This document shows positions 11,555 through 23,198 of a DNA stretch of 64,000 nucleotides, in pieces. Under the pieces are notes generated by a model. It ran no database searches and was not told the DNA's origin. It saw nothing but the letters and a program-made list of their open reading frames with translations. This DNA is from Chryseobacterium sp. JM1 (GTDB lineage: Bacteria > Bacteroidota > Bacteroidia > Flavobacteriales > Weeksellaceae), in assembly GCF_000737715.1 (NCBI RefSeq), contig NZ_JPRN01000009.1, forward strand, positions 1 through 64,000, written 5' to 3'. Position 1 is the stretch's first letter; each line of letters begins with the position of its first letter. The translations under genes were made by a program, and so were the position numbers.

Positions 11555-14500
11555 TTACTCATTACTCATAATTCTGGTACTGATTCCCTCATTCCAAGAC
11601 TTCGCTTCAGGCATATAATAAAGATATACATTGCTGGCTTTTCCGGTATATTCTCCTGCAAATTCAACTTTAAGATCAAGATTGATCACCTTTGTTTCCT
11701 CAGCATCAAAATGTTCCCAGTACAACACCAGATAATTGTCGAATATTTCATAATAAGCGACTTGCTTTTTGTCAATAAGATCTTTCAACAGAGCATTTTG
11801 GAGAGTCAGCCCGGCTGGAATTCCGATTTTAGCAGTGACCATCTGTAAAGGTCCGTTGATTTTATTTTTTACCGTAACCGTCATTCTGTTGGTCTCCCCT
11901 ACTTTCGCCTTTGCAGATTTCAGCGTGGTCTCCAGTGTCACAGGAATATCCTTACTTTCCGGAGCCTGTAAAGTGTAATACTGATAATCCAGCTTATATG
12001 GCAATCCTTTTGGGATGTCTCCGGCATATTCAATGTCTATTTCGTTCTCTCCGGTCCTGTATGCTGAACTCAGGCTTACATCAGGGGCTACTTCTACATT
12101 GTTTATTTTAATTTTTGGCTTTTCGGTTCCGTACAGCTTTTCATTTTTAGCAAAGAAATCAGACATCGCTTCCAAGGCTAATATAGTAGCCTGCGTGGAG
12201 CCAAAACTATAATATCCGTTATAATTGATCAATTGATCTGCTGCTTCTGCGATTTTCAGCTGATTGATTTTTTCATCCTTCTGAAGGGCCATGATGTAAA
12301 GCGACAGCGTTTCTGCATTGGCTGAGACCCCTCCGGAGCCTGTAAAAGTGACCTCCGTTTTTTCAGTTTTACTTTCATACTGCTGATTCAGTAGTGTCAT
12401 AAGCTGTTGATATTCTTTTGCTTTTCCAAGATAGGCAGATGCATTGGCCATCAGGGTGAGCTGGTAAGAATCTTTTGTGGCTAATACTTTATTCAATGCA
12501 TTTTTATATGGTTCTTCCAATTCATTTTTTAACCCGATTTTTGACAGAGCATAGATCACATACATATTTCTCGACCAGGCATAATTGGAGAAAGGACTCT
12601 TCATTTCAAAACTTTTTCTTACTTCAAAAGTTCCGTTCTGATTTTTCCTGGATAAAATGAAAGAGGTCAGATTCTGGATCAGCTTAGGATCAATGTCCAC
12701 ATATTTCTTAAGATCCCTGAATTCCAGTAAGGCAAAAGCTGACACCGAAGCATCAGATTCCGAAGCATTGAAATATCCGAAACCTCCATCCTTATTTTTA
12801 TAGCTAAGCATTTTCTGGTAGCCCTTTCTCATATTTCTGATCACAAAACTTTCCGTCTCGGGCGTGATCTTTTTAATTGATTTTAAATAATCAAGAATGA
12901 AAATATTTGGATACACCGTAGATGAAAGCTGCTCAAAACATCCGTGAGGTTGGCGTTTCAATCTTTCCATGTCATCAAACAGCTGAAGAGCCGTATTTTG
13001 ATACACGTAATACGAAGATGAGAAACTTCCGTTGATGTATTCCGGAATGTTGGCCTTTATGTTTTCAGAAGAATTATTGATGACAGAATAATGGTGCGGA
13101 AATCCTTTTTCTTCAACATTAAAAGGAAAAATAGCCGCTTCTCTGAAGTCTCCTGACTGTATTGAAAACTGGATATTAGAACTTATTACATCATCAGTCT
13201 GCATGGTCACAAACAACCTTCCCGATTCCAATGGTTTCAGGGTAATGATACTGTCAAATTTTATTAGTTTAACTCTATTCGGAACAATGACATCCATGAT
13301 CATTTTCCGGGTTTCTGCGGAGTTGTTTTTAATGACTACCGGAATCGTCATCTGATCTGCCCTCGTCAGGTACTGAGGAATTTTAGCATCAATGGAGATG
13401 AGGCTCTGAGCAGCATATACCGTTTCATCCCTTCCTATCTGGCCTTTCCCGGAAATACCTTCGGTTATGATTCTGAAAGCAGTATTGGCATCGGAATTAT
13501 AAAATTCAACCTGCGCTTTTCCTTTTTTATCAGTTTCTAACACAGGATTCCAGTAGATGTTTTCCCTGTAGTCAAAACGGTATGAAGTATTGGTACTCTG
13601 ATAGACAGGATACTGAAAATTTCTGCTGTAAGAATAGGTAACAAGGCTGTCATTCGGAACTGCCATCACTGCATAATAAGATTTTGGAGTAACGTCAATT
13701 CTCAGTTGTGAACGCGAGTTTTTGACAGAATTAATAAGAATGACTCCATTAACCCCCAAACTTCCATAAAGAGATGTGGCAGCAGCATCTTTCAAAACCG
13801 TTATACTGCTGATATCACTTGGATTGATTGTTGTTTTGAAATTTTCGACCAGCACTCCATCAACAACATACAGCGGAGTTTTGTTTGATACAGAAACCGA
13901 TCCTCTTATCACAACATTACTTCCGGGCTGTCCACTGGCTCTGTTGACCATAACTCCGGAGACTTTTCCTGTTAATACAGATGCAACATCCGGATTCTGC
14001 AATCCTTCTTCCTTTGAAACAGTTGTTGCTGATGCTAAACCATTTTTTTTGATTCTATAAGCCATTACGACCACTTCTTCAATTCTATCTGACTTTATAG
14101 TGTCACTTTTCGTATTTCCTCTGCTTTCGGATGATCTTTTTGTACGGCTTTCAGGAACATACTTTGTCTTTTCCTGCTCTATAATCTTTTTTTCAGGATC
14201 TTTTCGCATTTCTATCTTTCCGGTTTCTTTTACAGCTTCTTTAACGATTTCCTGTACATTCACATTATTCAGTGATTTTTTCGCCAGCGGATTTACCGGA
14301 AGCCTGTAAGATAGAATTCTGATCTTCACCTCCTGTTTAGGTTGAAAAGATTTAGCAACAAGTTTGTAGGAATTATCTTTTTTAAGATCCGAGAAATAGA
14401 ATGTTCCCTCTTCAGAAGTCGTCTGTTTAAGAGTTTTGTATCCTTCGATGAGGTAAACGTCGGCTTTGACAGGTTTCCCATTCTCATCTTCTACAATTCC

Positions 14501-16123
14501 ATAAATGGGATTCTTTTTTTCAGGAAGGTATTTATATTTTTGATTTGTAATGACTTCGGGAACCATCTCAAAATACCTGTAGCCATTGGTAAGCATCAAA
14601 AGATCAAGACTCTTAGCTGCCTTTTCTTCTTTTTTATCAAAATAAAACTGTGGTCTTTCCACTTTTCCTTTCAATTCCGAATCCATCAGGAGCCAGGAAA
14701 TGATATTATTCTGTTTGTCATCCGCATAGGTCCAGAGTTTATCATCTACAACGCTCATAGCAAGATTGGCAGGAACAGGAAGTCCGTTTTCATCCGTGGT
14801 TTCAATGTCCAGTACTACTTTTTCCCTTGGAAGATACTGTTGTTTTACAGGCTTAATTTTCACATTCATCTGTCTGTTTCCATGGGCAAAAACAATACGT
14901 TCTGCAAGGGGAATTTCTCCTTTAAAAACAGTAAATCTGCAAATACCGGCGGGAAGTTCTTTTTCAGAAATTTCAAACTGATTAAAACCTTTCTGTAATG
15001 AAAATGTCTGATTATAGATCTCTTTTTCCCGGAAGCTTCCTTTTAAAATAATTGTTTTTGCTCCTGTAGATTTGATCTTTGCGTAGATCTTTTGGTTTTC
15101 TTTATGCATATTAAAAACCACACCTTCATCTTTAGCCTCAGGAAGCGGGTATGTTTGGGAAATATTTTCAGGTTTAAGGACTTTTGCGTAATACGTTTCT
15201 CCTTTTTTAGGAGTAAAGAGAAAACTCCCCATTCCAAAATTATAGGCTGAAGTTTCTGCTACTTTTTGGTTGTTCTGATTAAAAATTTCCAAAACGGCAT
15301 CAACAGGTTTTTCATATTCATCTACAATTTTAAATGCTACATTCTGCTCAATTCCATTGATAAAAGTTCCTCCTTCCGGCATAAATTTCACATCAAGATG
15401 ATTCAGAACAATAGGAATATTTCTGGAAACAGATTCTGTAAAACCATCAAAATTCACTTTAATATTCAGCAAAGCATCAGAAGATTTCAAAACCTTCGGA
15501 AGATTGAATTTAAGCTGTTTTTTGCCTTCATTATCGGTGAGCAGTTTTCCTTCTGAAATGATCTCCCCATTGTGCATCACCGTATAATCTGCTTCATAGA
15601 AAGGAATCACCTGATTGCTTAGGCTTCGCATTGAAAAATCTGCCAAAACCTCATCACCCGGGCCATATCCTTTTTTAGGAAACTCAAGCTTCATCAGAAT
15701 TCTGGGTGAAACTACTTTCTGTAAGGTGATTTCTTTTTCAAAGGCATTTTTTCCTTCCTCATTCTGCATCCAGTTCGTAAAGGCTCTGATTTTGTAAATT
15801 CCGCCCTTCATCTCATCACTGAAATAGAAATATCCTTCTGCATACCCTTTTTCAATCTCGTATTTGGCTTTTTTAATCACACTTCCGCTTGGATCAATCA
15901 GTTCAAAGTTGACAACCCTGCTCTGATCCGCCGGAAGATTATTTTCGGCTTTCACGACGTAAATTTTAAAGTACATTTCTTCACCAGGCTTATAAAAAAC
16001 ATGGCTGGTTTGTATATACGTTTTTTCTTTTTCGAAATCTTTAAAGTGATTTTGTGCCTTCAATCCAATATTTGAAAACACTAAAGCAAAGAGTAAAATA
16101 TAAGTTGTTATCTTGAAATTCAT
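11555..16123 (-). CDS. Alpha-2-macroglobulin family protein with internal SusC-type plug domain
   Basis: This 1522-residue secreted protein has a signal peptide (ITTYILLFALVFSNIGLKAQ). Seen in order: MG1/MG2-like domains (about 30-135 and after), further beta domains, a carboxypeptidase-regulatory-like repeat (about 545-610), a SusC-type TonB plug-like domain (about 690-795: GKVSGVMVN, VVIRGS, LYVVDGV, VLKDAAATSLYGSLGVNGVIL), a macroglobulin bait and A2M region, and the helical thioester domain from about 1030. The motif PHGCFEQ near residue 1059 keeps the Cys and Gln needed for an internal thioester. Bacterial macroglobulins trap proteases or act at the envelope. A plug domain in the middle is unusual. 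The barrel gene ends 3 bp upstream, so they are cotranscribed. The stop codon falls inside a GAGTAATGAGTAATGA repeat. Confidence 0.85.
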   Translation of the reverse strand: MNFKITTYILLFALVFSNIGLKAQNHFKDFEKEKTYIQTSHVFYKPGEEMYFKIYVVKAENNLPADQSRVVNFELIDPSGSVIKKAKYEIEKGYAEGYFYFSDEMKGGIYKIRAFTNWMQNEEGKNAFEKEITLQKVVSPRILMKLEFPKKGYGPGDEVLADFSMRSLSNQVIPFYEADYTVMHNGEIISEGKLLTDNEGKKQLKFNLPKVLKSSDALLNIKVNFDGFTESVSRNIPIVLNHLDVKFMPEGGTFINGIEQNVAFKIVDEYEKPVDAVLEIFNQNNQKVAETSAYNFGMGSFLFTPKKGETYYAKVLKPENISQTYPLPEAKDEGVVFNMHKENQKIYAKIKSTGAKTIILKGSFREKEIYNQTFSLQKGFNQFEISEKELPAGICRFTVFKGEIPLAERIVFAHGNRQMNVKIKPVKQQYLPREKVVLDIETTDENGLPVPANLAMSVVDDKLWTYADDKQNNIISWLLMDSELKGKVERPQFYFDKKEEKAAKSLDLLMLTNGYRYFEMVPEVITNQKYKYLPEKKNPIYGIVEDENGKPVKADVYLIEGYKTLKQTTSEEGTFYFSDLKKDNSYKLVAKSFQPKQEVKIRILSYRLPVNPLAKKSLNNVNVQEIVKEAVKETGKIEMRKDPEKKIIEQEKTKYVPESRTKRSSESRGNTKSDTIKSDRIEEVVVMAYRIKKNGLASATTVSKEEGLQNPDVASVLTGKVSGVMVNRASGQPGSNVVIRGSVSVSNKTPLYVVDGVLVENFKTTINPSDISSITVLKDAAATSLYGSLGVNGVILINSVKNSRSQLRIDVTPKSYYAVMAVPNDSLVTYSYSRNFQYPVYQSTNTSYRFDYRENIYWNPVLETDKKGKAQVEFYNSDANTAFRIITEGISGKGQIGRDETVYAAQSLISIDAKIPQYLTRADQMTIPVVIKNNSAETRKMIMDVIVPNRVKLIKFDSIITLKPLESGRLFVTMQTDDVISSNIQFSIQSGDFREAAIFPFNVEEKGFPHHYSVINNSSENIKANIPEYINGSFSSSYYVYQNTALQLFDDMERLKRQPHGCFEQLSSTVYPNIFILDYLKSIKKITPETESFVIRNMRKGYQKMLSYKNKDGGFGYFNASESDASVSAFALLEFRDLKKYVDIDPKLIQNLTSFILSRKNQNGTFEVRKSFEMKSPFSNYAWSRNMYVIYALSKIGLKNELEEPYKNALNKVLATKDSYQLTLMANASAYLGKAKEYQQLMTLLNQQYESKTEKTEVTFTGSGGVSANAETLSLYIMALQKDEKINQLKIAEAADQLINYNGYYSFGSTQATILALEAMSDFFAKNEKLYGTEKPKIKINNVEVAPDVSLSSAYRTGENEIDIEYAGDIPKGLPYKLDYQYYTLQAPESKDIPVTLETTLKSAKAKVGETNRMTVTVKNKINGPLQMVTAKIGIPAGLTLQNALLKDLIDKKQVAYYEIFDNYLVLYWEHFDAEETKVINLDLKVEFAGEYTGKASNVYLYYMPEAKSWNEGISTRIMSNE

Positions 16124-16126
16124 ACC

Positions 16127-18898
16127 TTAAAATTGAAATGAAACCATGCATCCAAAAGTCTTGTAAGAAGGGAGATTGAAGAAATCAAGCCCTTTTCCGC
16201 TGTCCAGATCGTAAAAATTCTGGTTGGGATCTGCTCCCTGATTGGCCTGCCAGAGAAGAATATTATTGACGTAGAAGGTAATTCCCAAGCCTCTTTTAAA
16301 TCGGCCAACATCAAATTTTCCTGTTAGTGAAATATTGTTGATCCTTACATAATCTGCCTTCTGCACATAATCTTCTGCCACGCCTGTATAACCGTATCTT
16401 GTCCATCTGTTCTGTGAAACATTCTGTGCCGGATTGTAAAAATCGACCGGAATCTGATTAGGAGTTCCGTTTGAACTTACTCCCTGAAACACATAGTTTT
16501 TGATATTTCTTTCATCGCCTGAATTTTGAGAACGTCCGTAGTAATCCAGTACCGCTTTGGTTCCATTCCAGATCTGACCGCCTTTTTTCCATTCCCAGTT
16601 GATATCCAGAGAAAACATTTTATAATTGATGGTATGATTAAATTTAACGACAAAATCAGGGGTAGGGTCAGCAATAATTTTTAATCCATCTGCTTTTTTT
16701 GGATATCCGAACTCATCAATGATCAGCTCTCCGGCAGCATTTCTTTCAAAATAACTTCCCATCACGGCACCAAAAATTTGCCCTTCGGATAAAGTCTTAT
16801 ACACATCACTGAATCCCGCAATCGGAAGATTGTTATATCCTGCATTTACCCTATCTACTACGTCTTTGTATTTAAAAAAGGAAACCTTATTACTCATCTT
16901 GAAATCTGTTCCCAAATACATATTGTCATAGGCAAAATTCACTTCATAGCCACTGTATGAATGGTCTGCCAGATTCTTCAGCTGCAATTGATTATTTTCA
17001 AAAACCGGAAAAACATCATTGATCACTTTTCGATTAAAATACTCGGCTTCCAAACTCATGTTGTAAGCAGCCTTCAATCTAAAGCCTGCTTTTCCTTCCT
17101 TGCTGTTGATATTGGAAAGGGTCCGGAATGTTTGAGCTTCTAAAACCGGAAAATACTGATGGGCATTCTGAGCCTTCAGCAAGGTTGTGGCATAAGAAGC
17201 ATAAGATTTCGTGATCTCAGGCTCTGAGCTTATTTCCGTGTAGGCTCCCAGAATTTTAAAATCTACGCTGTTCAAGTTAAAAATATTCTGAAATGTCAGA
17301 TAGGCATTCACTTTCGGAAGCCAGTACATGTTTTTAGCAGATGTATTTGATATGTAGAAGGCATTCCCTACATTAAAACCTGCGCTGATGTCACTGCGGT
17401 AGCCGGAATAATCATATTTATAGTTTAAAATATAATCCTGTGATGTCCTCTGATACACATATTCTGTTTTTGTCAGGCTGTTGTAAACTTCAGATTTCCT
17501 GTCATTCAGGAGAAAATTCATGCTCAGGACACTTCTCCTGTCGCTTTCCCCGAAAGTATAGGATCCCGAAACATTAGAACTGTAAAGTTTGTTCTGCTGG
17601 CTGCGTTCACTGTACAAACCGTTTGTAAAGCCGTATGCAGATGGGTTGCGGTAATCAACATTCAGGAAACGGTCGTTTTCGTAGGACTGATTGATGATCA
17701 ATTTAAAATCGGAAAAGTTTCTTTCCAGCCCAAAGCTGAACTGTCTCCTGCGGTCGCGATAGTTGTATTTATTTTCCTGCTCCAGTAAAAAGTAAGGATT
17801 GTCTGCATACTGGCCATAGCTTCTCTGTAAACCGTTTGCCAGAAGTGTATTCTGTGCATTTGAAAAAGAAATGGGTGTAAGCAGTGCATTTTGATAAACC
17901 ATGTTGAAAAGTCCTGCTCTGTTAGAATTTACTGCTTTATTTTCATCATAATTAAATCCCAGATTCACAGAGAATTTCAGAATTTCAGAACTCAGCTTTG
18001 TTTTAAATGTATTGAAAATATTGTATTGATCCACAAAATAAGTCTGATCTTTCTGCTGTCCCAAGTCTAAGGAAAGCCTGAGCTGTTCACTATAATACCC
18101 TTTGTTCAGGGAAGTGTTCAGCCTCAGCTGATTGTTGTGGCTGAAAACCGTTTTGAAAATATCGTTGTTATAAGCTTTTGCCGGAAAAATTCCGGTCCCA
18201 ACAGGAATCAGTCTTCCATTCCAGTCGTATTCATAAGGATGATGATCAAATCCCAATGAAGAAATATCCGGTCCGAAACTGAACATTTCACCTGTTTCGG
18301 GTCCATTCCACTCCAGCTGACCGTTTTGGGAACGTCCCTGAACATAACGGTTTTGGGTATTTGGAATAGAGTTTCTCGTTTTAACGTCAAAAGAGGTTGT
18401 AAAACTTCCGCTAAAATCAATAAATTTCCTGGGCTGTTCTTTTAAATAGTAGGTATTATCAGTAACTTTTTTGATCTTACGGACCGCAGAGAAATTATAA
18501 GCTGATTTTCCGGTTACGTATTCTTTGGAATCTTCAACGCTGAATTCATCTTTGAGTTCTTTCGTCACTAAGCTGTCGTAGGCCCTGCTTCTGGACGTCC
18601 AGACACTTGCTTTCTCCGTTCTGCTTTCTAAAATGCTCTTAAGCTCACGAAGTCCACGGGCTACAAGTTTGTTTTTTCCGTCATTCCAGATCAGGGTATC
18701 ATTTTCTTTGGCGGCAATAATGGCAAAACCTTTTCCATCGGTAAGTTCATATATTCCGTTATTCTTATTATAAACCTTAAGGAAATTCTGAGGTTTATCT
18801 TTTTTATTTAAAAATACTCCTGAATAGTACAGCTGAGAGTTTTGCGAAAACAGAAAGTTGGCTGCAAAAGGCAACAACACCAAATAAATTTTCTTCAT
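16127..18898 (-). CDS. SusC/RagA-type outer-membrane barrel lacking a recognisable plug domain
   Basis: The 923 residues carry a signal peptide (MKKIYLVLLPFAANFLFSQ) and a short carboxypeptidase-regulatory-like N-terminal extension (about 20-95). They pass through a charged linker straight into a SusC-type barrel: IDFSGSFTTSFD near 165, NRYVQGRSQNGQLEWNG, alternating aromatic strands throughout, and a C-terminal YKTFGCMVSFQF strand. SusC proteins normally have a plug of about 130 residues with VVDG and ALYG..NGVI motifs before the barrel. None is visible here. Both flanking genes encode proteins with exactly such a plug. I infer that the plug may act in trans, or that the barrel is an open or structural pore. 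Family assignment is firm; function is not. Confidence 0.8.
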   Translation of the reverse strand: MKKIYLVLLPFAANFLFSQNSQLYYSGVFLNKKDKPQNFLKVYNKNNGIYELTDGKGFAIIAAKENDTLIWNDGKNKLVARGLRELKSILESRTEKASVWTSRSRAYDSLVTKELKDEFSVEDSKEYVTGKSAYNFSAVRKIKKVTDNTYYLKEQPRKFIDFSGSFTTSFDVKTRNSIPNTQNRYVQGRSQNGQLEWNGPETGEMFSFGPDISSLGFDHHPYEYDWNGRLIPVGTGIFPAKAYNNDIFKTVFSHNNQLRLNTSLNKGYYSEQLRLSLDLGQQKDQTYFVDQYNIFNTFKTKLSSEILKFSVNLGFNYDENKAVNSNRAGLFNMVYQNALLTPISFSNAQNTLLANGLQRSYGQYADNPYFLLEQENKYNYRDRRRQFSFGLERNFSDFKLIINQSYENDRFLNVDYRNPSAYGFTNGLYSERSQQNKLYSSNVSGSYTFGESDRRSVLSMNFLLNDRKSEVYNSLTKTEYVYQRTSQDYILNYKYDYSGYRSDISAGFNVGNAFYISNTSAKNMYWLPKVNAYLTFQNIFNLNSVDFKILGAYTEISSEPEITKSYASYATTLLKAQNAHQYFPVLEAQTFRTLSNINSKEGKAGFRLKAAYNMSLEAEYFNRKVINDVFPVFENNQLQLKNLADHSYSGYEVNFAYDNMYLGTDFKMSNKVSFFKYKDVVDRVNAGYNNLPIAGFSDVYKTLSEGQIFGAVMGSYFERNAAGELIIDEFGYPKKADGLKIIADPTPDFVVKFNHTINYKMFSLDINWEWKKGGQIWNGTKAVLDYYGRSQNSGDERNIKNYVFQGVSSNGTPNQIPVDFYNPAQNVSQNRWTRYGYTGVAEDYVQKADYVRINNISLTGKFDVGRFKRGLGITFYVNNILLWQANQGADPNQNFYDLDSGKGLDFFNLPSYKTFGCMVSFQF

Positions 18899-18923
18899 CG
18901 TTATTAATATTTCTAAAAATAGA

Positions 18924-18954
18924 GAAAAAAAAGAAATTCCCGAAGAAATTTCTT
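18924..18954 (-). terminator. UUCG-loop intrinsic terminator or attenuator inside the operon
   Basis: On the minus strand AAGAAATTTC pairs with GGAATTTCTT around a TTCG tetraloop (one T-G wobble) and is followed by eight T residues. It stands between the VWA-plug gene stop and the barrel gene start, within a 67 bp gap. It should reduce transcription of the barrel and macroglobulin genes relative to the sigma factor and VWA genes. Confidence 0.7.
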
Positions 18955-18965
18955 TTTCAAATACA

Positions 18966-21245
18966 TTAATTTTTAATCACCTTAAAGGTTTCCCACTGAT
19001 CTCCAGATCTCAATCTTAAGAGATAAATACTCTGGGGATAGGAAGTAATGTCGATTGTGTTTTTACCTTCTTCAAGTTTCTCTTTTCTCATGATGATCTT
19101 TCCGGCCAGATCATAAACGAACAGTTCGTCTATGGCATATCTGGATTTTATATTGATGATCCCTTTGGTAGGATTCGGGAAGATCACCGTTTTGGATTCC
19201 GGTTGATTATTAACTTCTGTTTCGAGCTTTTTGTTCAGATGATCATTTGAAATTCCGTCGTTGCATTCCGGAAGTGTTGCTCTCTGAAGAATCAATCTTA
19301 ATAACAGTGCATTCAGCTTTTCTACTTCATAGGAATCAATGGTAGGTTTTATATGGTCATTACCAATACCACTGTCGTTGGTTAGAAAAGTGTAGGTCCC
19401 GTTCGTCAGTAAAGCAAATGTTCTCATCAGATATTCCGTCTGTTTATCCGTATCACTTGCTGCCAGAGGAATTACTGTAATTCCTTTTTTGGAGGCCAGT
19501 TTTATTTTCTCATATAGTTTGTTGATATTTTCCTCTGAATGGTGTGGAGGTGCATCAAGAATCAAAAACATGATTTTGGCTGAATTTTCATTGCTCCATT
19601 TCAGTTCATCAATAGACACCTGCATGGCTTCCACAACCGCTTCAGGGGTATCTCCGCCTCCACCTGCATTTTGTTTTTTAATGAAACTGACCAGTTCTTC
19701 AGCTTTATCAGAAAAGTCAAATTTTCTCGTTACATAGTCGTCACCCTGGTCTCTGTAAAAGACGGATCCGTACCGCACCGTTGTATTTTTAAGATTGCGT
19801 TCCACCTTTTTTAAGACATCAAGGAGTTCAGACTGCAGATATGAAATTTCGTCTCCCATAGAACCTGTAGCATCCACTACAAATGCAAGATCCAGATTCC
19901 GTTTGGTAACACAGGCTCTGTCCATCATCACCAGGTTCTGTCCGTTTTTAAAATCTCTGATATTCGTACTGATGATCTGTCCTGAGCCGTCCGCTAAATA
20001 ATATTTTCCGAAAATTGAATTACTGCCTTTCATAGGCTCTATCCACAATTCTGCATTTCCTAAATTATTGGAAACCGCTTCCCAGATGACCTCTTTTTTA
20101 TCGTTCAACAGCTTTACTTTTTCTCCGATTACCGGTTTTCTGTTTTTGTTGACTAGCTGTACGGAAACCCTTCTGTCAGGAAAGAACTTCCATATATTTT
20201 TATATTCGTCAAGCGTAGGAACTGCGATATCTTTCCAGTACTCCCATTTTGAGAAATCATTCACTTCCCCGGCGGTTAGTAGTCCTGCTTTCGGAAGATC
20301 TTTATCTTCTTCTTTAATAACTTCTTCCGTTTTTTTTGAGGCTTCTTCTTTAAGTTTTTCCAATTCGGATTTCGAGAGGCCACGGGTTGTCACCAAAATG
20401 ACCCCATTGCTGGCTTTACTGCCATATAAAGCTGTAGCTGCCGATCCTTTTAAGACTTTTATCTCCTTAATATTGCTGGGATCCAATGAGTTAAGCACTT
20501 TTGATTCTCCGCCAAATACCACTCCATCTACCACAAATAATGCTTTATCAACGCTCATACTTTTAGCCCCTCTTATACGAATTTCTGAATGTTTTCCTGA
20601 TGAAACAGATAGCCCGGCTACTTTACCACTTAAAGAAGCCATTACCGGCAAACTTCCAGCTCCTATCTCCCTGGAAGCAACCATCGTACTTGATGAAGTT
20701 ACTGAGCTTACCTTTTTTTTCAGCCCCATAGAACCAGTCATCACGACTTCTTCTATCCTTGTTTCTCTTAAAGTATCTCTTTTTCTCTGTCCGGAATATT
20801 TATACTCCTCTGGCGGTTCAGGGAGTTCGCAAGAAATGGTTCTTGGGTTGTCTAAACTTATGGGCGCTACGGGTTCATAAGCAAGTACGGGCTGCACAGG
20901 TTTTAGTTCTATTTCTTTTTCTATATTGGCTTTTACTGTACTGTCTACTGTCTGGATATTATTCTTTTCAGAACGATTTTCAGTCCTGTTTTCTACGATT
21001 ACAGGTTTCGGGTTTTCAGCAGTTTTATCTTTACTGATAAAATAAAACGCCCCCAATCCAATGATTAAACTTGCCGCGATTCCATAAGGAAACCACACCG
21101 GCAGTACTCTTTTTTTCTCTTCTTTTTTATCTAAATTTTCTTCAACTTTTGCCCAGACTTTATCAAAACCCGGAAAAACGGTCGGTTCTTCTGAAAGCTT
21201 AGAAGCATCATTGAATTTTTTATCTATGTCGTGATTGTTTTCCAT
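18966..21245 (-). CDS. Membrane protein with SusC-type plug, VWA domain and type IX sorting tail
   Basis: This 759-residue protein follows the sigma factor gene by 10 bp. Seen: an acidic cytoplasmic N-terminus (1-48) and one transmembrane helix (about 49-68), the layout of an anti-sigma factor; a proline-rich linker; a SusC-type plug-like domain (about 165-290: LSGKVAGLSV, IRIRGAKS, LFVVDGVVFG, VLKGSAATALYGSKASNGVIL); a linker with an Ig-like stretch; a VWA domain (about 450-655) with MIDAS residues in DATGS (Asp458, Ser462) and GGGGDTPEAV; and a C-terminal type IX sorting domain (about 690-759: VIFPNPTKGIINI and YLLRLRSG). VWA domains bind proteins through a metal ion. The tail normally sends a protein across the outer membrane, which conflicts with a membrane anchor. 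An anti-sigma role is an inference from position and topology. Confidence 0.8.
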   Translation of the reverse strand: MENNHDIDKKFNDASKLSEEPTVFPGFDKVWAKVEENLDKKEEKKRVLPVWFPYGIAASLIIGLGAFYFISKDKTAENPKPVIVENRTENRSEKNNIQTVDSTVKANIEKEIELKPVQPVLAYEPVAPISLDNPRTISCELPEPPEEYKYSGQRKRDTLRETRIEEVVMTGSMGLKKKVSSVTSSSTMVASREIGAGSLPVMASLSGKVAGLSVSSGKHSEIRIRGAKSMSVDKALFVVDGVVFGGESKVLNSLDPSNIKEIKVLKGSAATALYGSKASNGVILVTTRGLSKSELEKLKEEASKKTEEVIKEEDKDLPKAGLLTAGEVNDFSKWEYWKDIAVPTLDEYKNIWKFFPDRRVSVQLVNKNRKPVIGEKVKLLNDKKEVIWEAVSNNLGNAELWIEPMKGSNSIFGKYYLADGSGQIISTNIRDFKNGQNLVMMDRACVTKRNLDLAFVVDATGSMGDEISYLQSELLDVLKKVERNLKNTTVRYGSVFYRDQGDDYVTRKFDFSDKAEELVSFIKKQNAGGGGDTPEAVVEAMQVSIDELKWSNENSAKIMFLILDAPPHHSEENINKLYEKIKLASKKGITVIPLAASDTDKQTEYLMRTFALLTNGTYTFLTNDSGIGNDHIKPTIDSYEVEKLNALLLRLILQRATLPECNDGISNDHLNKKLETEVNNQPESKTVIFPNPTKGIINIKSRYAIDELFVYDLAGKIIMRKEKLEEGKNTIDITSYPQSIYLLRLRSGDQWETFKVIKN

Positions 21246-21255
21246 TGCCTAAAAT

Positions 21256-21774
21256 TTAAATGTTCTGATTAACCAAAAGTTCCTGTAGTTTTTTCCTTGC
21301 AAAATTGAGCTGGGATTTAGAAGTTCCCTCGCTTATAGAAAGCATTGAAGCAATTTCCTTATGCGGATATCCTTCAATCGCAAACAGGTTGAATATGGCT
21401 CTGCAGCCTTCCGGAAGAAAGTTCAGCAGGCTCAGGATATCTTTCTCAAACGAAATGCTTTCGGATAAGGTTCCGGATGTTTCTGCAAAACTGTCATCCA
21501 TAGAGACGAACTGTGTTTTCGTAGCTCTCAGTTTCTGAAGGCATTCATTGACAGCAATTTTTCTGGCCCAACCTTCAAAAGTGTCCACATTCTGGAGTTG
21601 GCTGATCTTTGTGAATATTTTGTAGAATGTATCGGCCAATACTTCTTCAATATCTTCATCATTTTTCAGGTAGCGTCTGCAGACTGAGTACAGCTTGCCC
21701 GCCATTTTCTCGTAGACCTTCCGCTGTGCACTGCGGCTGTTACGTTGGCATTCTATTAGTAATTCTCTTTCCAT
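21256..21774 (-). CDS. ECF-type RNA polymerase sigma factor
   Basis: The 172 residues comprise sigma region 2 (about 10-80: AQRKVYEKMAGKLYSVCRRYLKNDEDIEEVLADTFYKIF, then FEGWARKIAVNECLQKLR) and region 4 (about 115-165: LLNFLPEGCRAIFNLFAIEGYPHKEIASMLSISEGTSKSQLNFARKKLQELL). Such small sigma factors direct transcription of envelope or transport genes and are usually held by a cotranscribed membrane anti-sigma. The next gene, 10 bp downstream, encodes a membrane protein with a suitable N-terminus. It is therefore the presumed master of the four-gene unit. No matching autoregulated promoter could be recognised by eye. Confidence 0.92.
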   Translation of the reverse strand: MERELLIECQRNSRSAQRKVYEKMAGKLYSVCRRYLKNDEDIEEVLADTFYKIFTKISQLQNVDTFEGWARKIAVNECLQKLRATKTQFVSMDDSFAETSGTLSESISFEKDILSLLNFLPEGCRAIFNLFAIEGYPHKEIASMLSISEGTSKSQLNFARKKLQELLVNQNI

Positions 21775-21995: not shown

Positions 21996-23198
21996 ATGAA
22001 AAATACCAAAATTGCCTCATTACTTTTTGTTTTGTCTGCAGGAAGTATGATGTTTGCCCAAGATGACTTGATCAACAAATTAAAGAACAATCAATCACAA
22101 AATGCTAATTTTCAGTTCACCGCGTTAAAAGACGTAGGAGCGACTTCAGTAAAAAACCAGGGATCATCCGGAACCTGCTGGAGCTATTCAGGGAACTCTT
22201 TCCTTGAATCTGAAATGCAGAGGATGGGTAAAAAACCTGTAGATCTGGCTGAAATTTTCACGGCAAGAAATTCTTACCACGATAAAGCTAAATTATTTGT
22301 CCTTAACGGCGGAGCGATCAGCTGGGGTGACGGAGGCGAACTGCACGACGTGATCAATATGTACAAAAAATACGGTGCGGTACCTCAGGATGTGTATACA
22401 GGATTAAAATCCGGACAGAGCCTTAATAACTTTAAGGAAATGCAGGGGAAATTAAAAACAGTTCTGGACAGTCTTGTTCAGGCAAGTTCAAAAGGAAAAC
22501 TTTCGGATAACTGGATGGATTCTGTAGATTCAATTCTGGATGAATATCTTGGAAAAGTGCCAGCTAATTTTACCTACGAAGGAAAAAATTATACGCCTAA
22601 AACATTCGCTAAGGAAGTTGTAGGCATCAATCCTGAAGATTATATAGAAATTTCTTCATACAAAGATTACCCGTACTACCAGAAATTCGTAGTTCCGATT
22701 CCTGATAACTGGAGCCATGATTCTGACTGGAATGTTCCGATGAAAGATTTGACAGCAATCATTGACAATGCTGTAAACAAAGGATATTCCGTAGGATGGG
22801 CTACAGACGTTTCTGAGCCTTATTTCTCATACAAAAACGGGGTAGCTTATGTTCCTGATGTGGATTTGAACGGGATCACTCCTGAAAACAAGCAAACACT
22901 TTTCACTGAGCCTAAGAAAGATAAAACTATTACCGAAGATATGCGTCAGAAAGCGCTTAACAACCTTTCTACCACGGATGATCACGGTATGCATATCGTA
23001 GGATTGGCGAAAGATCAGACCGGAAAAGAATATTATATGGTTAAAAACTCCTGGGGTGTAACCAATGATTTCGAGGGTTATCTTTATGTAACCAGACCTT
23101 ATGTAGAATACAAATCAACTGCGATCCTGATCCATAAGAATGCGGTTCCAAAAAGTATTCTTAAGCAGCTGAAGCCTACTAAAAATATTGGTTTATAA
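21996..23198 (+). CDS. Secreted C1-family cysteine peptidase (bleomycin hydrolase or aminopeptidase C type)
   Basis: The 400 residues include a signal peptide (MKNTKIASLLFVLSAGSMMFAQ). The papain-type catalytic set is complete: oxyanion Gln55 and nucleophile Cys61 in NQGSSGTCWSYSG, His330 in DDHGMHIVG, and Asn351 in KNSWG. The long insertion between Cys and His and the DHGMH form point to the C1B branch. That branch is usually cytoplasmic, but the signal peptide here implies a periplasmic or exported enzyme. A strong terminator follows. Two genes for GG-leader peptides lie downstream. The enzyme could be linked to them, but C39 peptidases are the usual leader cutters, so a link is only speculative. 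Confidence 0.88.
   Translation: MKNTKIASLLFVLSAGSMMFAQDDLINKLKNNQSQNANFQFTALKDVGATSVKNQGSSGTCWSYSGNSFLESEMQRMGKKPVDLAEIFTARNSYHDKAKLFVLNGGAISWGDGGELHDVINMYKKYGAVPQDVYTGLKSGQSLNNFKEMQGKLKTVLDSLVQASSKGKLSDNWMDSVDSILDEYLGKVPANFTYEGKNYTPKTFAKEVVGINPEDYIEISSYKDYPYYQKFVVPIPDNWSHDSDWNVPMKDLTAIIDNAVNKGYSVGWATDVSEPYFSYKNGVAYVPDVDLNGITPENKQTLFTEPKKDKTITEDMRQKALNNLSTTDDHGMHIVGLAKDQTGKEYYMVKNSWGVTNDFEGYLYVTRPYVEYKSTAILIHKNAVPKSILKQLKPTKNIGL

Follow-up and report, generated by a model that had tools for sequence, protein, structure and literature searches.

We analyzed a 64,000-nucleotide stretch of DNA from Chryseobacterium sp. JM1 (contig NZ_JPRN01000009.1, positions 1 to 64,000; hereafter the window), focusing on four intact genes in its list of open reading frames (ORFs), on the minus strand from 21774 to 11555. 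In gene order they encode an extracytoplasmic function (ECF) sigma factor, a membrane protein that we call gene 2, a SusC-type barrel without a plug, and an alpha-2-macroglobulin (A2M). We found that the plugless barrel and a full-length A2M with a SusC-type plug go together in the loci examined, and that free plugs also exist. Judged from the sequences, the barrel and the A2M probably constitute a split SusC transporter, with a thioester protease trap that provides the gate in trans. This reading draws on the anatomy of the two proteins, their pairing in all loci examined, a single clade of sampled barrels, and the thioester and Ton-box-like motifs. The locus is two modules joined, the sigma factor with gene 2 and the barrel with the A2M. 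An initial annotation, made from the letters of the sequence, had assigned a plug and a von Willebrand factor type A (VWA) domain to gene 2, no plug to the barrel and a second plug to the A2M, next to an ECF sigma factor, and Pfam and TIGRFAM scans bore out this domain reading.

No Pfam family was recognized in the barrel, and TIGR04056 aligned at profile positions 214 to 981 (of 981) only, with a score of 68.9 bits, below the curated cut-off of 368.25. The Pfam and TIGRFAM scans found no plug elsewhere in the window barrel chain. We considered a plug that lies at another place in the barrel or is hidden by a frameshift, either of which, according to the initial annotation, would remove the idea of a gate in trans. 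No such plug was present in the window chain or in any of 80 relatives (described below), and there was no sign of a frameshift; because the 80 relatives also lack a plug, a local frameshift does not hide one. Among the SusC matches listed for six genomes, every one spans the plug region. An N-terminal extension (NTE) of the CarboxypepD-like family PF13715 was found in four of six barrel relatives scanned and was not found in the window barrel. A structural model containing the barrel of one relative (L151) aligned to a SusC barrel with a Z score of 21.9 and a root-mean-square deviation (rmsd) of 3.5 over 509 aligned residues.

The plug of the A2M is part of a cassette with the order NTE, Ton box, plug, as in SusC, and its best match in the PDB was the SusC plug of 5t3r. 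Other domains of this protein recognized by Pfam are MG2 and an A2M macroglobulin (MG) domain at residues 856-942. The Ton-box-like motif was found by a strict pattern in 94 of 124 plug-bearing A2Ms and by a loose pattern in 106 of 114 distinct sequences; seven of the eight distinct sequences missed by the loose pattern have the motif by eye. In SusC the Ton box is DEVVVTG, and the matched passages of PMC7782687 describe growth defects upon its deletion or replacement. On the C-terminal side of the plug, the A2M profile aligned to the Escherichia coli A2M from chain position 953 of 4rtd. In the portion seen of PMC4498604, the E. coli bait region is disordered at residues 923-942, and residues 947-963 are ordered after cleavage; the chain index of 4rtd and this numbering may differ by some residues. 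This alignment puts the cassette immediately ahead of the segment that matches the E. coli protein around the end of its bait region. On the N-terminal side of the cassette, only part of PF07703 (A2M_BRD) matched, at residues 415-461.

A model of A2M residues 24-1035 had a mean predicted local distance difference test score (pLDDT) of 78.3. Its MG domains are well predicted; from them the chain runs through a disordered linker at about 615-699 to the plug, and a brief second gap separates the plug from one more MG domain. The fold match was best to the E. coli A2M (Z 22.1, rmsd 9.5, 511 aligned), and complement C3 scored nearly as well. Over all lineages, the mean identity of the plug was 0.46, like that of most A2M domains, and the linker before the plug was the most variable part (0.22). 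Among 44 near relatives the identity of the plug to that of the window was 38-83%, below both flanks in 44 of 44. The notion that the plug is the fastest-evolving part of the A2M everywhere was therefore rejected: it is true in the 44 near relatives and not over all sequences.

A lax lipobox motif was present in 9 of 124 plug-bearing A2Ms versus 12 of 21 plugless A2Ms. In the seven distinct plug-bearing cases printed, the cysteine is inside or close to the hydrophobic stretch, and these look false by eye, no signal-peptide predictor having been applied. The library scans listed no type IX secretion system (T9SS) tail in the A2M. The barrel, instead of a lipid, may be the anchor of the plug-bearing A2Ms.

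The pairing of barrel and A2M occurs in many Bacteroidota. A scan with the barrel alignment, covering one genome for each of 84,980 species, recovered 290 relatives, and the best 80 were kept. All 80 were without a plug, and all 80 adjoined an A2M gene, with the plug seen in 79. The plug and the thioester domain were in one frame in 76 of the neighboring A2Ms; two A2Ms were split into two frames, with the plug seen, another was ended by a contig edge, also with the plug seen, and that of L113 ended before the plug. The barrel came first in 79 of the 80 loci, the A2M coming first in L137 (5001-12892) alone. According to the record titles, the kept barrels are from Winogradskyella, Aquimarina, Tenacibaculum, Kordia, Maribacter, Flavobacterium, Chryseobacterium, Chitinophaga and Niastella, and also from Cyclobacteriaceae, Roseivirga, Saprospiraceae, Bacteroidales and others. 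The initial annotation had asked whether plugless SusC homologues always adjoin a plug-bearing gene; among the best 80 of 290, none was without an A2M neighbor.

We obtained a similar result when the search began with the A2M. A profile built from plug-bearing A2Ms matched 15 of the 397 genomes of one family (that of genome G227), and 12 of 12 newly fetched plug-bearing A2Ms adjoined a plugless barrel, with one pair cut by contig ends. Several loci were shared with the barrel scan, so the two tests overlap. In a survey with the thioester domain, 73 of 247 Bacteroidota genomes matched, mostly by A2Ms of another type. Twenty of these A2Ms (1493 to 1945 amino acids), hand-chosen across families from the 73 genomes, were fetched, and all 20 had neither a plug nor a neighboring plugless barrel. 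A 1568-amino-acid A2M without a plug (in L073) had no barrel either.

In a tree of barrel parts, 30 plugless barrels, hand-chosen from 114 pairs, formed one group (100/100) versus 22 plug-bearing SusCs. The nearest to them of the 22 sampled SusCs were three from the window's own genome. Since the plugless barrels are one group on this tree, a single event of plug loss in cis suffices to account for those that were sampled.

These observations suggest how the pair might work. The barrel, in the outer membrane, would have lost its own plug, and the A2M, in the periplasm, would carry the missing cassette of NTE, Ton box and plug near its bait region. By pushing the plug into the barrel from the periplasmic side, the A2M would seal the pore and at the same time be tethered to the outer membrane. 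TonB could pull on the plug by way of the Ton box. As expected from its family, the plug-bearing A2M would be a protease trap: a protease that came in through the pore, or that cleaved the exposed linkers, would set off the A2M and be captured through the thioester. The location, docking, sealing, TonB action and trapping are steps that we infer.

Several results weigh against such an arrangement. The docking on which it depends is itself hypothetical; the A2M plug and the barrel together exceed one chain of 1200 residues. The plug was modelled at a low pLDDT (about 40-62), and a PDB search with the N-terminal side of the bait region gave chance-level matches only. In 16 stretches (L074-L089) we found A2M-like proteins of 807-975 amino acids with MG domains and no thioester domain, some in tandem; at the same place these have plugs that are whole, half or undetected, most being whole or half, and no plugless barrel was found in the 16 stretches. 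In a tree of plugs (30 from A2Ms, 22 from SusCs, 7 from gene 2 and 6 rows from the short MG proteins), the A2M plugs were not one group, and neither were the gene 2 plugs. The plug of one A2M (L051) grouped with canonical SusC plugs of the window genome at 99/90, with the bootstrap not settled. Tight co-adaptation of plug and barrel is unlikely given that the A2M plugs are not monophyletic. A mirror-tree analysis covered the 114 pairs that remained after leaving out loci without both genes intact. The raw plug-barrel correlation was 0.467, the lowest of 16 segments (the others ranged from 0.654 to 0.820), and the partial correlation was 0.246, 11th of 16; the plug ranked first among close pairs only. 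The absence of a mirror-tree signal is a further point against tight co-adaptation, and may be because the plug is at times swapped for another plug of the family. These data fit a plug that is held to the standard of the SusC family and is at times replaced by another.

Table 1. Features of the four-gene locus, in window coordinates.
Feature	Position	Strand	Evidence or remarks
ECF-type promoter motif TCCAACC-N15-GCATCT, 21 nucleotides before the sigma start codon	21796..21823	-	kept in 28/28 upstream regions compared
ECF sigma factor, 172 amino acids	21256..21774	-	PF08281, PF04542, TIGR02937
Gene 2, 759 amino acids: probable anti-sigma end, transmembrane anchor, plug, VWA, T9SS tail	18966..21245	-	ORF list, domain scans
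Ton-box-like motif and SusC-type plug of gene 2, residues 162-289	20379..20762	-	TIGR04056 profile 76-205, 108.4 bits; PF07715 3.1e-13
VWA domain of gene 2, residues 452-614	19404..19892	-	PF00092, PF25106; in relatives replaced by a YfbK-type VWA or missing
T9SS type A sorting tail of gene 2, residues 688-759	18969..19184	-	TIGR04183 42.8 bits, cut-off 23; PF18962
Terminator-like hairpin between gene 2 and barrel, TTCG loop and T run	18927..18958	-	present in 22/25 barrel loci, window included
Plugless SusC-type barrel, 923 amino acids, apparent signal peptide, diverged N-terminal part	16127..18898	-	TIGR04056 214-981 only; PDB match 5fq6 barrel 246-984
A2M with plug, 1522 amino acids	11555..16123	-	ATG 6 nucleotides past first base of barrel stop, same frame
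Carboxypeptidase-regulatory (NTE-like) domain, A2M residues 540-592	14348..14506	-	PF13620 0.00035, 21.3 bits, below cut-off 32.3; well-predicted in model
Ton-box-like EEVVVMA, A2M residues 682-688	14060..14080	-	same form as SusC Ton box DEVVVTG
SusC-type plug, A2M residues 698-794	13742..14032	-	PF07715 4.2e-12; TIGR04056 123 bits over 678-857
Thioester domain (TED), A2M residues 1049-1322	12158..12979	-	PF07678 3e-24
GCFEQ thioester motif, A2M residues 1061-1065	12929..12943	-	in 123/124 full-length plug-bearing A2Ms

The four genes had been proposed to be cotranscribed as a single unit. This is not supported, because the sigma factor and gene 2 are also found alone and a hairpin follows gene 2; read-through from gene 2 into the barrel may occur. 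A generic terminator scan did not list the hairpin at 18958-18927, probably because that scan asks for three G-C pairs. Hairpins 3' of gene 2 were also present in most of 12 loci without a barrel. These 12 were among 14 loci fetched on the promoter motif and carry the sigma factor together with gene 2, whose plug is whole or partial, but lack both the barrel and the A2M; the 14 were hand-chosen, mostly from genomes without the barrel, and 12 of 14 is therefore not a rate. The barrel matched at an E value of 1e-30 in 38 of 117 searched relatives, the window's own genome included. Of these, 34 loci were intact and in the genus, one was distant, and three were broken or fragmentary. The order sigma, gene 2, barrel, A2M was kept in all 33 other intact loci of the genus, and in five of these, gene 2 and the barrel are separated by an additional gene, for a YfbK-type VWA protein that looks by eye like a lipoprotein. 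A distant relative (L052) has the barrel-A2M pair alone, and only 18 of the 80 kept barrel loci, those of Chryseobacterium and one near relative, showed a match to the N-terminal end of gene 2. We conclude that the sigma factor and gene 2 are a separate, genus-level signalling module, which precedes the barrel-A2M pair in Chryseobacterium and in one near relative and may sense that pair. The 18 of 80 barrel loci and the sigma-gene 2 loci without a barrel also weaken the idea that gene 2 is an obligate part of the barrel system.

Decayed copies of the locus were also seen. The barrel is broken in L059, and all genes are broken in L060 (from a genome that is 75% complete). The genome of L061 has a barrel match of only 88 residues, beside an intact sigma gene and gene 2.

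Within gene 2, Pfam placed the plug at residues 179-282, and a Ton-box-like EEVV motif precedes the plug here as in the A2M. The N-terminus consists of a short polar stretch followed by one apparent transmembrane segment, with the topology judged by eye. The N-terminal end is a probable anti-sigma part, because of its position, this topology, and the presence in L072 of a separate small transmembrane protein after the sigma factor. The Pfam scan recognized no FecR or DUF4974 domain in gene 2 at E 0.1. A search with the first 110 residues, as a family that might be used elsewhere in the genome, found only gene 2 itself. Gene 2 is constant over roughly its first 300 residues, and the remainder varies: 22 ORFs have a VWA domain with a T9SS tail, 18 have a YfbK-type VWA domain, and in 14 the remainder is missing, these counts including some loci fetched twice and, among the 14, one split gene and two ORFs of a near relative. 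The split gene, in one genus locus, is in two frames. An apparent inner-membrane anchor near the N-terminus and a T9SS tail at the C-terminus make an odd pairing in one chain.

VWA proteins are also found near the pair elsewhere. YfbK-type VWA proteins, lipoproteins by eye, recur beside the A2M in L040, L041, L045, L068 and L069, and after it in L034, L048, L049 and others. In L071/L121, L112, L115 and L118, a different VWA lipoprotein is encoded upstream of the barrel, at a distance of some hundred bases or more. A VWA partner seems to be a habit of the plug-bearing A2Ms. In another family (L072:2177-3590), the theme recurs in split form: the barrel and A2M are preceded by an ECF sigma factor, a small transmembrane protein and a protein of 156 amino acids that has an apparent signal peptide and carries two half plugs.

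The promoter motif TCCAACC-N15-GCATCT had two matches in the 5.26 Mb genome of the window, and a reversed control had none. In addition to the match before the sigma gene, there was a match 17 nucleotides before the gene for a 241-amino-acid protein (L203:4069-4794; G000:C3:210568-211293). This is a plug-only membrane protein with an N-terminal part that contains FCSVC, an apparent transmembrane segment and a plug; the same motif precedes relatives of it in seven other genomes. Across the genus, the motif matched in 114 of 118 genomes and the reversed control in 9 of 118. We read 32 loci with motif matches: 16 matches were before a sigma gene of this family, eight were before a relative of the 241-amino-acid protein, six were inside reading frames and two were before other genes. 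Given the motif before the sigma gene and before this third plug protein, the sigma factor probably controls its own gene, gene 2 and the third plug protein; it would itself be the factor that reads TCCAACC-N15-GCATCT.

A papain-like C1 peptidase with an apparent signal peptide is encoded at 21996-23198 on the plus strand of the window, divergent from the sigma gene. It is ~87-99% identical among intact relatives and adjoins sigma-gene 2 loci both with and without the barrel. No SusD was recognized by eye among the listed ORFs of the window; the 80 barrel loci were not scanned for SusD.

The initial annotation had suggested that a gate is supplied in trans, by gene 2 as well as by the A2M. The suggestion is well supported by genome evidence for the plug of the A2M, which is paired with a plugless barrel in both search directions in the loci examined, and is not supported for that of gene 2, which persists without the barrel. 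The docking of the gene 2 plug was addressed by folding a chain, found naturally in L151, in which a short gene 2 plug reads through into its barrel. The model (mean pLDDT 55.5, predicted template modelling score 0.52) has ~22 barrel strands by hand count, and the first 144 residues are disordered, including the first half of the plug; the second half of the plug is folded. The best fold matches were SusC structures, with model residues 413-1177 placed onto SusC 210-1015 (Z 21.9) and a best Foldseek TM score to target of 0.57. The alignments of the 50 fold matches listed start at residues 407-416, in the barrel, and none starts in the gene 2 plug. Only the barrel was thus placed on SusC structures, in a weak model, and the model hints, weakly, that the gene 2 plug is not the gate. 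We therefore regard as improbable the model in which the same barrel is served by both plugs, with gene 2 detecting when the barrel is empty and then releasing the sigma factor. It is consistent with the constant gene order in the 33 genus loci, with the Ton-box-like motif and plug of gene 2, and with the small two-half-plug protein that precedes the barrel in another family. It is at odds with the 12 of 14 loci, most of them chosen from barrel-less genomes, in which the sigma factor and gene 2 occur without the barrel and A2M, with the hairpin that separates the modules, with the rarity of the gene 2 N-terminal end among barrel loci (18 of 80), and with the failure of the gene 2 plug to be superposed on a SusC plug among the matches listed for that weak model.

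Plugs might instead be reused as binding modules, as had also been suggested, and this does seem to occur in gene 2 and other proteins. Applied to the pair, the A2M cassette would be an adaptor or bait scaffold, perhaps binding TonB, the barrel would be open or closed by its own loops, and a shared substrate would make the two genes neighbors. We consider this unlikely for the pair. Plugs do exist in proteins without barrels (gene 2 at barrel-less loci, the 241-amino-acid protein and the A2M-like proteins of 807-975 amino acids), and the mirror-tree analysis does not single out the A2M plug. However, a binding module leaves unexplained why each of the 80 plugless barrels has an A2M next to it (the plug being seen in 79 of these) while 20 A2Ms of another type lack both, and why a whole plug with a Ton-box-like motif has been retained. 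Still less probable, in our estimation, is that the barrel serves to export or display the A2M, which would be pulled to the surface with the plug as the passenger's handle, much as Oar is required for PopC to be secreted in Myxococcus. The parts seen of PMC6434023 and PMC11658791 record that a TonB-dependent transporter is needed for protease secretion. A passenger would need no whole plug, yet the plug is kept at the level of the SusC family; and the lack of a listed T9SS tail in the A2M leaves out T9SS but not this channel. We thus favor a split transporter gated by the A2M. A fuller version, which we advance tentatively and believe somewhat less likely to be right than wrong, is a baited door: a split transporter found throughout the phylum, with its gate on a protease trap that is sprung by attack from outside, and with a sigma-gene 2 module that senses the door in Chryseobacterium and a near relative.

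The proposed system shares parts with several known ones. The barrel resembles SusC/RagA transporters (TIGR04056; BT1763, BT2264, RagA) in its fold, its C-terminal features and, in some relatives, the NTE, and the Ton-box-like motif and plug are those of the SusC family, here on the A2M. In contrast to those transporters, the plug is not in cis and the barrel scores far below the TIGR04056 cut-off. The A2M shares its MG domains, TED, CxEQ thioester and fold match with E. coli YfhM/ECAM, but it has a SusC-type cassette near the bait, no convincing lipobox and a barrel partner. In complement C3/C4/C5, the anaphylatoxin domain is inserted at what we take to be the place equivalent to that of the A2M plug. 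If so, the fold match would extend to a trigger domain at the corresponding place of the MG scaffold, the inserted domain here being a transporter plug. FhuA has reportedly been rebuilt from a separately made plug and barrel, as a laboratory construct; this work, which was not among the literature matches listed, would show that a plug can act in trans. The T9SS translocon SprA has a separate Plug protein. That system offers a likeness from the same phylum, as the T9SS channel in the outer membrane is open in a strain without PorV and the protein called Plug, according to the matched portion of PMC12611786. It differs in that its channel and plug are unrelated to those described here and it has no protease trap. 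The arrangement proposed for the sigma factor and gene 2, an ECF sigma factor with a membrane-bound anti-sigma factor that reaches the periplasm, is like FecI-FecR-FecA and FoxI-FoxR-FoxA as outlined in PMC11637429. Unlike those systems, gene 2 has no match to the FecR family, carries a plug and a VWA domain, and is not tied to the barrel. Among the matches listed in the open-licence PMC literature, preprints excluded, we saw none that describes a SusC without a plug as the partner of an A2M.

TonB-dependent transporters are regarded as machines of a single chain that comprises both barrel and plug. A natural, conserved split, if true, would offer a means of studying how a barrel takes up and releases its plug, a question left by the finding, in the passages seen of PMC7782687, that SusC plugs can leave the barrel whole in vitro. 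It would also assign bacterial A2Ms to a definite site at the outer membrane and supply them with a physical trigger. The pair is present in genera that are grown in the laboratory (such as Chryseobacterium, Flavobacterium and Chitinophaga), which makes these ideas testable. If the baited door is real, it would join the architecture of a nutrient transporter with a complement-like defence.

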